64,000 nucleotides of DNA from a virus: IMG/VR virus record IMGVR_UViG_3300044701_001873, positions 43,233 through 107,232 of that record; one strand, given 5' to 3'. Position 1 is the first letter of the stretch; every line of letters starts with the position of its first letter. Position numbers and translations under genes: made by a program. Shown here in pieces: positions 1 through 57,394 of this stretch. The notes beneath the pieces were generated by a model. It was not told where the DNA came from. It saw only the letters and a list, made by a program, of their open reading frames with translations, and ran no database searches.

Positions 1-1742
1 CCTTGAGGTCCTTGAGTTCCCTGGAGTCCTTGAGTTCCCTGGAGTCCTTGAGGTCCTTGAATACCTTGAAGACCTTGAAGTCCTTGAGATCCTGGTGTTC
101 CTGCTCCACCAGAAAGACCTTGAATACCTTGACTTCCTTGAATTCCTTGAATACCTTGAGGTCCTTGAGTTCCCTGGAGTCCTTGAATTCCTTGAAGTCC
201 CTGAGAGCCTGTAGTTCCTTGAATACCTTGAAGTCCTTGAGATCCTGGTGTTCCTGCTCCACCAGAAAGACCTTGAATTCCTTGAAGTCCCTGAAGTCCC
301 TGAGGACCTGCAGTTCCTTGAAGACCTTGAGGTCCTTGAATACCTTGAAGACCTTGAGATCCTTGAACACCTTGAATACCTTGAACACCTGGAGTTCCAA
401 GAGTTCCGGAAATACCTTGAATACCTTGATTTCCTTGAATTCCTTGAATTCCTTGAATTCCTTGAAGACCCTGAGCACCTGGAACCCCAACACCCCCAAA
501 AGTTCCTTGAACCCCTTGAATTCCTTGAATTCCTTGAATTCCTAAAGGACCTTGATTTCCTTGAATTCCTTGAGGTCCTATGGTTCCTTGAAGTCCTTGA
601 ATTCCTAGGAGACCCTGAGTTCCAAAATCACCACTAATTCCCTGTAGTCCTTGAGGACCTGCAGTTCCTTGAATACCTTGAGGTCCTTGAATACCTTGAG
701 GTCCTTGAATTCCCTGAATACCTTGACGTCCTTGAATTCCTTGAATTCCTTGAATACCTTGAAGACCAAAAAGAGCAGCTTCTTGAACGGTTTTCCAAGT
801 AACTCCAAGGCCAGGTCCTTGAGACATTAATACTGAAGTAGTTGTTCCACTAGTTCCATCAATATCATCAGCATCATATGCCAAAAATCCTTCTAAAATT
901 AAACCTATTGAAGTTCCAACTCCGACAATTGCTGCTCCACCACCAACATATAGTGATGTAATAGAACCAATACCACCGATTACATTTCTAGAAGTTTCTG
1001 CAATTCCGCTAATATTTTCTGCTTCCTTTGCCTTATTGACATAAATTGGATAAAATTCACTTGGATCTACTCTTTCTGTGCTTAAAAATCCTCCAGTAAT
1101 ATTCGCAGCACTGGTTAGATTAGTTGCAGTTGTTGCAGTTCCACTTAAATCGCCATAAAAATCGGGAGCAGTAACGGAACTGATAAATCTACCATCACCA
1201 GCAACATCTAATGTAAAAATCGGATTATTTGTTGCTACACCAACCCTACGAGTTGATGCATTATAAAATAAATCAGGAGTTCCAAATGCAAATCCAGTTG
1301 AAGTATTAACAAGGAATTCACCTACATTTCCTTGATTTAAAACTTCATCAACTGCAATTCTAATTGTTGCTACACCAACTCCAGGAAACATTTCAAATGA
1401 GGAAGTTTCTACGGTAACTCCCGTTCCTACAAAATTTAATGCCCCAATTCTAGTGAAGGCATTGGATGGCAAAGTACCTCTATCAAAAACACTTATAAGA
1501 CCTTGAGTAGTTCCAATTCCAATATTGCCTGTGGCCCAATATCGTTCTCCTGGTTGAGTTCCTACTCCAATTACAGTATAATACTGACCTAAAGGAAGCG
1601 GTTTTGCAGTAACCGAAGATGGTCCTACTAAAGGGTCACCGAGATTTGGTTCAGCTTGCTCTAATCCAAGAAACTGATACCTATCGGAAGTAATTCTTGA
1701 TTGTGGAGTTCTTACAACTCTTCCAGAATTTAATCTCGCCAT
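1..1742 (-). CDS. Collagen-like tail fibre protein (3' end outside window)
   Basis: Minus-strand frame open from an ATG at 1742 to the left edge, so at least 580 residues with the C-terminus missing. The first 320 or so residues are non-repetitive and rich in the short beta-type motifs (GIGTT, VGVAT) seen in the neighbouring fibre proteins. From about position 765 to the left edge the protein is almost pure Gly-X-Y triplets (GIQ, GLQ, GPQ, GTQ), the collagen-like pattern that forms trimeric fibres in many phages. At DNA level this is a 9-bp periodic repeat, which also creates long Leu/Ser-rich open frames on the plus strand that are not genes. Likely an adhesin or tail-fibre shaft; the receptor-binding end would lie beyond the window. 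The next upstream gene (1788-2657) has a second, shorter collagen-like tract. Confidence 0.85.
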   Translation of the reverse strand, partial: MARLNSGRVVRTPQSRITSDRYQFLGLEQAEPNLGDPLVGPSSVTAKPLPLGQYYTVIGVGTQPGERYWATGNIGIGTTQGLISVFDRGTLPSNAFTRIGALNFVGTGVTVETSSFEMFPGVGVATIRIAVDEVLNQGNVGEFLVNTSTGFAFGTPDLFYNASTRRVGVATNNPIFTLDVAGDGRFISSVTAPDFYGDLSGTATTATNLTSAANITGGFLSTERVDPSEFYPIYVNKAKEAENISGIAETSRNVIGGIGSITSLYVGGGAAIVGVGTSIGLILEGFLAYDADDIDGTSGTTTSVLMSQGPGLGVTWKTVQEAALFGLQGIQGIQGIQGRQGIQGIQGPQGIQGPQGIQGTAGPQGLQGISGDFGTQGLLGIQGLQGTIGPQGIQGNQGPLGIQGIQGIQGVQGTFGGVGVPGAQGLQGIQGIQGIQGNQGIQGISGTLGTPGVQGIQGVQGSQGLQGIQGPQGLQGTAGPQGLQGLQGIQGLSGGAGTPGSQGLQGIQGTTGSQGLQGIQGLQGTQGPQGIQGIQGSQGIQGLSGGAGTPGSQGLQGLQGIQGPQGLQGTQGLQGTQGPQ

Positions 1743-44252: not shown

Positions 44253-44845
44253 AATACACACTCCTTTAACATTTTTTTACACTTAAATATATCTGTATGT
44301 AGGAAGGAAGAATATTTTAAAATCCTTAGGGAAACGAATTCCCATACAGGATCTTGAAGTTTTTTATCGAAGTCTGTTTTATAGTTAAGAATGTTGTTCA
44401 AGATAACCATAGTCTCAAGAGAAATCTTCCCTTGAAGATGTTCCTTTAACAGTTGAGGATGTTTATTACCATCGATCATAAACATATTCTCAAAATTCTT
44501 AGACGTAAAAACCGTATCGATTTCCTCTTTAAAGAAATAAGAAATCGACTCGGTTCTTTTTTTCCAATTCTTATATCTAGTTTCACCATCTCTTATAATT
44601 TCACCAATCCAAAGAGACTGTGGATCATCACAACAAACAAAATTGGCAACAAAAAAATTAATAATCTCTTCGTCAGTTTTTTGTCGACTCATTTTTTCAA
44701 ACCACATCCTATCTTTACGCTTATAGAAAGCTTGAAGGGATGCTTTTACTTTTCCGCAATATTTTTGATAATCGTAATTTGGTTTTGTGAAATGATTTTT
44801 GAGAGCAAGATATGTTTTATAACAATTTAGAGGATCCAATTTCAA
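44249..44845 (-). CDS. 59: gp59-like helicase loader
   Basis: 198 residues (T4 gp59 217), mostly helical. It has the N-terminal LDPLNCYKTYLALKNHFT, the VCCDDPQSLWIGEII segment, and a C-terminal helix LQDPVWEFVSLRILKYSSFL characteristic of gp59. It loads the gp41 replicative helicase onto gp32-coated forks. It overlaps gp33 by 4 bp upstream and DUF1825 by 4 bp downstream, forming a coupled replication/late-transcription cassette. Confidence 0.85.
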   Translation of the reverse strand: MKLDPLNCYKTYLALKNHFTKPNYDYQKYCGKVKASLQAFYKRKDRMWFEKMSRQKTDEEIINFFVANFVCCDDPQSLWIGEIIRDGETRYKNWKKRTESISYFFKEEIDTVFTSKNFENMFMIDGNKHPQLLKEHLQGKISLETMVILNNILNYKTDFDKKLQDPVWEFVSLRILKYSSFLHTDIFKCKKMLKECVL

Positions 44846-45111
44846 AATACTAAACGTGCTCGTGAAGTTTTTTTCAAAAAGTTGAGTTCCATTGCTTGAA
44901 ACTTAATTTTTTCTTTCAATGGTTTTGAAAGAAGTTTAGGAACTGACTCTAAATCTATCTTATTCCTTTCACAAAAAATAATCACAGCATCAATATAATT
45001 GACATCGGGATTTTCTTGGACTATTTTTTCTACTTCTTGAGCAAATTTAGTGGGGCAATAAAATTTTTCTTCTAAAACTTTTTCAAACTCTTTTTCGATT
45101 GTGTTCTCCAT
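44842..45111 (-). CDS. 33: gp33-like late-transcription co-activator
   Basis: 89 residues from ATG at 45111 (MENTIEKEFEKVLEEKFYCP); a TTG 24 bp further upstream is a possible longer start. The C-terminus LLSKPLKEKIKFQAMELNFL and KKTSRARLVF is the conserved gp33 segment. gp33 links host RNA polymerase to the sliding clamp at late promoters, matching the ATAAATA elements in this window. It has a sigma70-type promoter upstream, as expected for a regulator made before late genes. Confidence 0.85.
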   Translation of the reverse strand: MENTIEKEFEKVLEEKFYCPTKFAQEVEKIVQENPDVNYIDAVIIFCERNKIDLESVPKLLSKPLKEKIKFQAMELNFLKKTSRARLVF

Positions 45112-54124: not shown

Positions 54125-55182
54125 AGTGCGTTACCTCGCGGTAGAACTTCCTCTGGGAACACAAAGTTCTCATGAGGTTGATCTGTAGGTGCCATCCAAG
54201 CACGAAGACCTTCATTGAGTAGAATGTTCTTCGTGTAGAAGGTTTCAAACTCAGGATCTTCTGCAGCCCTGATTTCCTGACTTACAAAGTCGTAAGCACG
54301 AAGATTAAGAGCCAGACCGATAATACCAATGCTACTAGTCCATAACCCCATGACAGGTACAAACAGCATGAAAAAATGAAGCCAACGCTTATTACTAAAA
54401 GCAATGCCGAAAATCTGTGACCAAAAACGGTTTGCTGTAACCATTGAATAGGTCTCTTCCTCTTGTGTTGGTTCAAATGCCTTGAATGTGTTCGCTTGAT
54501 CTCCATCTTCAAATAATGTATTTTCTACAGTTGCTCCATGAATTGCACAGAGCAGTGCTCCTCCTAGTATACCAGCAACTCCCATCATATGGAAGGGGTT
54601 GAGGGTCCAGTTGTGGAAACCCTGAAGGAACAGTAGGAACCTGAAGATTGCTGCCACCCCAAAGGATGGAGCAAAGAACCAACTGGATTGACCCAGTGGA
54701 TACATCAGGAATACAGAAACAAATACTGCGATAGGACCAGAGAATGCGATTGCGTTATAAGGACGGATACCTACCAGACGAGCGATCTCAAACTGGCGGA
54801 GCATAAAACCTATGAGAGCAAAGGCTCCGTGGAGCGCCACAAAAGTCCAGAGTCCCCCAAGTTGGCACCACCTGACAAAATCCCCTTGAGACTCAGGACC
54901 CCAAAGTAGAAGAAGAGAATGACCCATAGCATCTGCAGGCGTCGAAACAGCTGCTGTGAGAAAATTAGCGCCTTCAAGATAAGAAGACGCCAACCCGTGG
55001 GTGTACCAGCTTGTAACAAACGTTGTGCCAGTAAGCCAACCACCAAGGGCCAAATAAGCAGTGGGAAAAAGAAGTAATCCAGACCAACCCACAAAGACAA
55101 AGCGATCTCGTTTAAGCCAGTCATCCAGGACATCGAACCACCCCCTTTGTTGAATAGGTTGAGAAATTGTAGATGAAACCAT
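54121..55182 (-). CDS. psbD: Photosystem II D2 protein
   Basis: 353 residues, full length and uninterrupted. Recognised D2 landmarks are [20 protein letters not shown] at the N-terminus, the [19 protein letters not shown] region, [20 protein letters not shown] around the iron/quinone ligands, and the C-terminal [16 protein letters not shown]. It replaces the host D2 during infection to keep photosynthetic electron flow going. The promoter is a consensus sigma70 sequence fused to a late element. The stop overlaps a 44-residue membrane ORF. Confidence 0.97.
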
Positions 55183-55203
55183 AATCTCCTTAACGATTTG
55201 TAA

Positions 55204-55237
55204 TATTTATTATAAGGTTTTTTATGGAGGATGTCAA
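55204..55237 (-). promoter_or_regulatory. Composite early/late promoter of psbD
   Basis: Minus strand TTGACA (55232-55237), 17 bp, TATAAT (55209-55214), continuing as TATAATAAATA, so the late element ATAAATA (55204-55210) starts inside the -10 box. Both elements are perfect consensus and lie 22-50 bp before the ATG, with AAGGAG as ribosome-binding site. Confidence 0.85.
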
Positions 55238-55254: not shown

Positions 55255-55279
55255 AAAAAAGAGACCCTTTCGGGTCTCT
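55255..55279 (-). terminator. Intrinsic terminator
   Basis: Stem AGAGACCC / GGGTCTCT, loop TTTC, followed by a run of T on the minus strand. It ends the 84-residue gene just before the psbD promoter. Confidence 0.85.
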
Positions 55280-55301
55280 CAAATATCAAGAAGATCTTAA
55301 T

Positions 55302-57198: not shown

Positions 57199-57360
57199 TT
57201 GTAAGAGTGTTAGATATGAGTTCGGGGGGACGAACTAGTATCATTATGTTCCACACCACCCTCCAGTGTGGATATGAGAGACGTGATTTACCCTCCCATA
57301 GGTCTCGGTTAACGGGAGCACAAAGATTAAGAAGTTGTAACAGTTCTTAACTTGATGTTG
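57199..57360 (-). promoter_or_regulatory. Structured psbA 5' leader
   Basis: About 160 nt between the psbA promoter and its ATG, with no gene. Hairpins: AGTTCG / CGAACT at 57219-57236 and CCACAC / GTGTGG at 57251-57271. It may control psbA translation or mRNA stability. Nothing resembling a known riboswitch was identified. Confidence 0.6.
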
Positions 57361-57394
57361 TATTTATCATAACACTTCCTGAAAAGGAAGTCAA
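57361..57394 (-). promoter_or_regulatory. Composite early/late promoter of psbA
   Basis: Minus strand TTGACT (57389-57394), 17 bp, TATGAT (57366-57371), running into TATGATAAATA so the late element ATAAATA (57361-57367) overlaps the -10 box. Same architecture as psbD. Confidence 0.8.

Follow-up and report, generated by a model that had tools for sequence, protein, structure and literature searches.

The psbD promoter of this virus is probably a single 34-bp sequence that can be read twice, once by host polymerase with sigma70 and once by polymerase carrying phage gp55. Judged by sequence comparison, the promoter is real, conserved and functional-looking, and it was partly anticipated in print. 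It lies in the 64,000-nucleotide stretch analysed here (the window), which is part of a 107,232-bp IMG/VR virus record. The cyanophage genes psbD and psbA are host-derived and are believed to sustain photosystem II in marine cyanobacteria during infection, and the duration of their transcription bears on the energy balance of the infected cell. A polymerase handover at one site, if true, would account for the continued expression of a host-type gene past the late switch, and start sites can be predicted precisely from it.

Promoters of the sigma70 type combine TTGACA and TATAAT at 16-18 nt spacing upstream of a gene. On the minus strand, positions 55237-55209 read TTGACA-17-TATAAT, agreeing at 12/12 bases with a spacer of 17. 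A sequence-only reading of this DNA had described a perfect sigma70 promoter here, and its coordinates (55204-55237) were exact. It was equally right that a late element, ATAAATA, starts inside the -10 box: the element spans 55210-55204 and begins at base 5 of TATAAT, making a composite promoter of 55237-55204. The T4-type late core is NATAAATA, located ~12 nt before the start site, and psbD has AATAAATA at 55211-55204. The late core ends 21 nt upstream of the psbD ATG (at 55182), and the upstream sequence as a whole reads TTGACATCCTCCATAAAAAACCTTATAATAAATATTACAAATCGTTAAGGAGATTATG on the minus strand. Coordinates of all features are collected in Table 1.

Table 1. Features of the psbD and psbA promoter regions and of a late-transcription gene in the window.
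Feature	Position	Strand	Remark
psbD -35 hexamer TTGACA	55232..55237	-	6/6 match to consensus
psbD promoter 17-nt spacer	55215..55231	-	TCCTCCATAAAAAACCT
psbD -10 hexamer TATAAT	55209..55214	-	6/6 match to consensus
psbD late-promoter core ATAAATA	55204..55210	-	NATAAATA type; overlaps last two -10 bases
Predicted psbD start sites	55198..55202	-	sigma70 ~55202-55201, gp55 ~55198; from geometry
psbD Shine-Dalgarno AGGAG	55186..55190	-	3 nt 5' of ATG
Intrinsic-terminator-like hairpin and T run	55259..55280	-	just 5' of psbD promoter
psbD, photosystem II D2 protein, 353 aa	54121..55182	-	96% identical to S-PM2 PsbD
psbA composite promoter	57361..57394	-	TTGACT-17-TATGATAAATA; second composite in window
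psbA leader, PhotoRC-II RNA	57236..57330	-	RNA family match (RF01717, 80 bits)
psbA, photosystem II D1 protein, 359 aa	56119..57198	-	uninterrupted reading frame
gp33-like late-transcription co-activator	44845..45075	-	61% identical to S-PM2 gp33

We propose that the host's RNA polymerase, bound to its principal sigma factor, would read TTGACA-17-TATAAT at psbD, and that polymerase carrying phage gp55, gp33 and the sliding clamp would later read ATAAATA, whose first two bases are also the final two of the -10 box. Because one sequence would be read by both polymerases, psbD could stay on through the phage's switch from sigma70-type to late transcription. Taking the sigma70 -10 box as -12 to -7 and the late core as -13 to -6, the positions it occupies in T4 (PMC1524935), the two polymerases are predicted to start 3-5 nt apart and to yield near-identical mRNAs with a short leader of roughly 16-20 nt. 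The terminator-like hairpin just upstream is expected to insulate psbD from transcription arriving from that side, so psbD probably depends on its own promoter.

The window contains T4-like genes related to those of S-PM2, including gp33, gp32, phoH, gp4 and others. Together with the close match of its PsbD to that of S-PM2, these identify the virus as a T4-like cyanomyovirus. Neither gp55 nor gp45 was found when we searched the 107-kb record, which is a genome fragment. Between psbA and psbD, as in S-PM2, lies an Endonuclease VII family protein (PF02945; 55588-56022, minus strand) that is 38% identical to the homing endonuclease F-CphI. The psbA frame of the window is uninterrupted, and the intron of S-PM2 psbA is absent. 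The PhotoRC-II RNA of the psbA leader begins ~25 nt past the site where the psbA composite is predicted to start transcription.

For comparison, we gathered from IMG/VR the upstream regions of phage psbD and psbA, with those of phage g23 and of cyanobacterial psbD and psbA as controls. A relaxed composite, defined as [AC]TAAATA with a -35 of 4 of 6 or better, was present in 53/141 phage psbD and 48/75 phage psbA regions, although these counts overstate independence because related phage promoters share descent. Of the 88 psbD regions that lack it, at least 47 directly follow psbA and may be served by the psbA promoter. Relatives at both genes kept the pattern TTGAC-N17-TAnnnT-AAATA while the spacer drifted. 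Among 28 non-redundant psbD promoters, information content was 1.78 bits per base for TTGAC and 1.92 for AAATA versus 0.80 for the spacer; the corresponding values for non-redundant psbA promoters were 1.95, 1.95 and 0.36. Two conserved ends held at a fixed distance around a drifting spacer imply selection on both ends. Dual recognition by sigma70 and late polymerases, as the earlier reading had proposed, is well supported by this comparison: at psbD and psbA of many cyanomyoviruses the late core overlaps the -10 box in fixed register, with the -35 at 17 nt. The strict composite is absent from host copies of these genes and from phage g23 (0/76 upstream regions), and the virus encodes gp33.

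The part of that proposal that is not supported is the assignment of the sigma70 half to early transcription. Host-like sigma70 promoters of the TTGACA-17-TATAAT type in T4-like cyanophages reportedly drive middle, not early, genes, a result attributed to Doron 2016. Furthermore, in P-HM2, whose psbA promoter is a composite, the auxiliary genes are confined to the middle expression cluster, psbA and psbD included (PMC5082946). Given both reports, we read the design as a handover from middle to late transcription and not as early-plus-late. Late transcription from it may be weak, or it may be masked by the way P-HM2 expression was clustered.

The exclusively middle expression in P-HM2 also favours an account in which psbD is a middle gene transcribed by host polymerase alone, with AAATA serving as an A+T-rich discriminator or reflecting a preference in spacing or in the mRNA 5' end. 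The perfect sigma70 hexamers at psbD fit this account as well, yet we consider it unlikely. Sigma70 sites with a spacer of 17 are in excess in the window, Syn9, P-HM2 and S-PM2 (83, versus 19 with a spacer of 16 and 24 with a spacer of 18), but AAATA directly follows only 7/83 of them, compared with 0.15% of all TANNNT words. The composite is thus a special minority of sigma70-type sites. At psbD and psbA, in contrast, AAATA is present in 48 of roughly 50 upstream regions having a sigma70 site with this spacer, although some psbA promoters keep the sigma70 elements without it (e.g., L285 and L292). The same [A/C]TAAATA core marks late sites that lack a -35 upstream of structural genes in three reference phages. 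Conversely, the hli gene of the window (62102-62046, minus strand) has sigma70 elements and no late core (TTGACG-17-TATAAT-TGTG), unlike psbD and psbA.

It is improbable that the gp55 polymerase alone reads the site, with ATAAATA as the promoter and TTGAC as a leftover or another factor's site. Such an account would explain why ATAAATA or CTAAATA persists alongside -10 boxes that depart far from consensus (TAAGAT, TAACAT or TAAACT). However, TTGAC is conserved as well as the late core and at a fixed 17-nt spacing, even though the spacer itself is variable, and late-only sites in the same genomes have no TTGAC. The middle-class expression of psbD and psbA in P-HM2 (PMC5082946) also argues against it.

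Less probable still is that psbD was taken together with its host's own promoter and that the overlap is accidental. The host origin of psbD and psbA would favour such inheritance. Nevertheless, the same element was not seen at the cyanobacterial genes, with strict composites in 0/77 psbD and 0/20 psbA upstream regions. Inheritance was already disfavoured by these counts, and Puxty 2018 reported no motif common to the S-PM2d and host psbA upstream regions (PMC5931967).

We then considered how often the composite arises elsewhere in cyanophage genomes. In 24 longer cyanophage records it occurred 40 times, as compared to 0 for a reversed control. By loci and by matching sequence, 32 of these were assigned to psbA or psbD, and the other 8 precede porin, SLH or outer-membrane genes. 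Of 30 composites whose loci were fetched, 26 sit ahead of psbA, at ~150-170 nt from its start, or ahead of psbD, in most cases at 21-22 nt. Another five agree in sequence with psbA or psbD promoters, and in S-RIM32 a single composite is located 329 nt upstream of psbD. The remaining 8 precede SLH/OprB porins, an SLH-hli-ferredoxin cluster or members of the Phage_OMP beta-barrel family, 2 of the 8 being placed only by their identical or near-identical promoter sequence. The non-psb loci are L594, L595, L599, L600, L597 and L598, and the Phage_OMP gene corresponds to PF24653. Throughout the 107-kb record of our virus, the composite stands only at psbD and psbA, and the reversed pattern gave 0.

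The register of the two elements was likewise non-random. The window holds one perfect TTGACA-15..19-TATAAT, that of psbD, versus 0.10 expected in shuffles. ATAAATA alone was not enriched in the window (17 found versus 28 expected from shuffles), and we discarded its frequency by itself as uninformative. Across the window, Syn9, P-HM2 and S-PM2, a hexamer matching TTGACA at 5 or more of its 6 bases stood exactly 27 nt upstream of ATAAATA in 9 cases, against a mean of ~0.9 at other offsets, making 27 nt the sole offset to stand out (Poisson P ~7e-7). Chance overlap in an A+T-rich phage genome, which draws some support from perfect composites in many unrelated viral contigs among the matches listed in a collection-wide scan (from which no frequency can be derived), is refuted as a general account by this phase lock, by the 40 versus 0 composites and by conservation across diverged promoters, and for psbD we hold it to be as remote as host inheritance. 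By these measures, the overlap of sigma70 and late elements at psbD is not chance, and the patterns mark the composite as a selected promoter design for host-type genes.

Within this design, psbD promoters vary in a structured way. Most relatives combine a weaker -10 (TAAGAT, TAACAT or TAAACT) with a spacer containing a 10-bp direct repeat. The psbD promoter of S-PM2 is TTGACC-17-TAAAATAAATA. The repeat takes the form TGTTAAG-N3-TGTTAAG in most phage psbD promoters (e.g., L001, L005, L009 and L016), and in one subgroup the copies have jointly become TGTAAA. Between copies, 80% of positions are identical versus 62% with columns shuffled, and 0/2000 shuffles reach 80%, although relatedness inflates this figure. 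The Pho box was rejected as an identity for the repeat because the published CTTA-N7-CTTA has an 11-bp period, which misfits the 10-bp period seen here. The psbD promoter analysed here falls, together with those of L047, L070 and L071, into a minority with no spacer repeat and a -10 of TATAAT or TACAAT; these promoters either lost the repeat or never had it. A palindromic block of the ATGAGTA-N4-TACTCAT type directly adjoins the -35 in numerous promoters of psbD and in some of psbA. Such conserved palindromes, like ATGAGTACAAATACTCAT, are next to the -35 or a short way upstream of it (e.g., L069, L272, L275 and L278). This palindrome is no genome-wide repeat (7 seen versus 3.6 expected), and covariation was looked for in it and none was seen. 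Separately, several strong sigma70 sites in Syn9 (L201-L204) and S-PM2 (L209-L212) have a recurring AACNCTGYCNGG-like sequence directly after the -10 (L202:2741, L203:23733, L210:24932 and L212:3193), perhaps a separate regulatory element.

The association with porins suggests a logic common to genes of membrane proteins, not one confined to photosynthesis. Tentatively, the composite may define a small class of cyanomyovirus promoters (those of psbA, psbD, SLH/OprB porins and the SLH-hli-ferredoxin cluster), reserved for products that need replenishing in the host membranes all through infection. Such promoters would pass from host to late polymerase with no gap, and the direct repeat and the palindrome beside the -35 at most psbD genes might serve a further regulator. 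We regard this broader scheme as possible, though doubtful.

The psbD promoter shares TTGACA-17-TATAAT with the Doron-type sigma70 middle promoters and differs from most such sites in Syn9, S-PM2 and P-HM2 in having AAATA past the -10. The concept of a composite is already known. For cyanomyoviral psbA, Puxty 2018 described sigma70 -35 and -10 elements with a gp55 site inside the -10 and proposed early and late expression (PMC5931967). The arrangement is therefore not peculiar to psbD: that promoter has the same architecture and proposed role, and the psbA promoter in the window is an example of it. However, the psbA composite is followed by a structured leader of ~150-170 nt, whereas 21-22 nt separate the psbD element from the ATG, and most psbD relatives, unlike the psbA case, have the 10-bp direct repeat in the spacer. 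Earlier still, promoters of RB49 and S-PM2 in which early and late elements overlap were proposed as a 'middle' mode, as reviewed by Clokie et al. 2010 (PMC2984593). Those promoters likewise place early/sigma70 and late elements before one gene in phages without MotA/AsiA. They were described for homologues of T4 middle genes, while the present composite has a fixed register and stands before host-type photosystem and envelope genes. The additions made here, which we did not find in the accessible literature, outside of which most subscription papers fall, are the psbD instance, the strictness of the register, the specificity for certain genes and the members at porin genes. Finally, the T4 late promoter TATAAATA, read with gp55, gp33 and gp45, has the core ATAAATA in common with psbD, and gp33 is present here. 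T4 late promoters need no -35, whereas the psbD promoter has one, and its late core carries A at -13, as is accepted in S-PM2, RB49 and KVP40.
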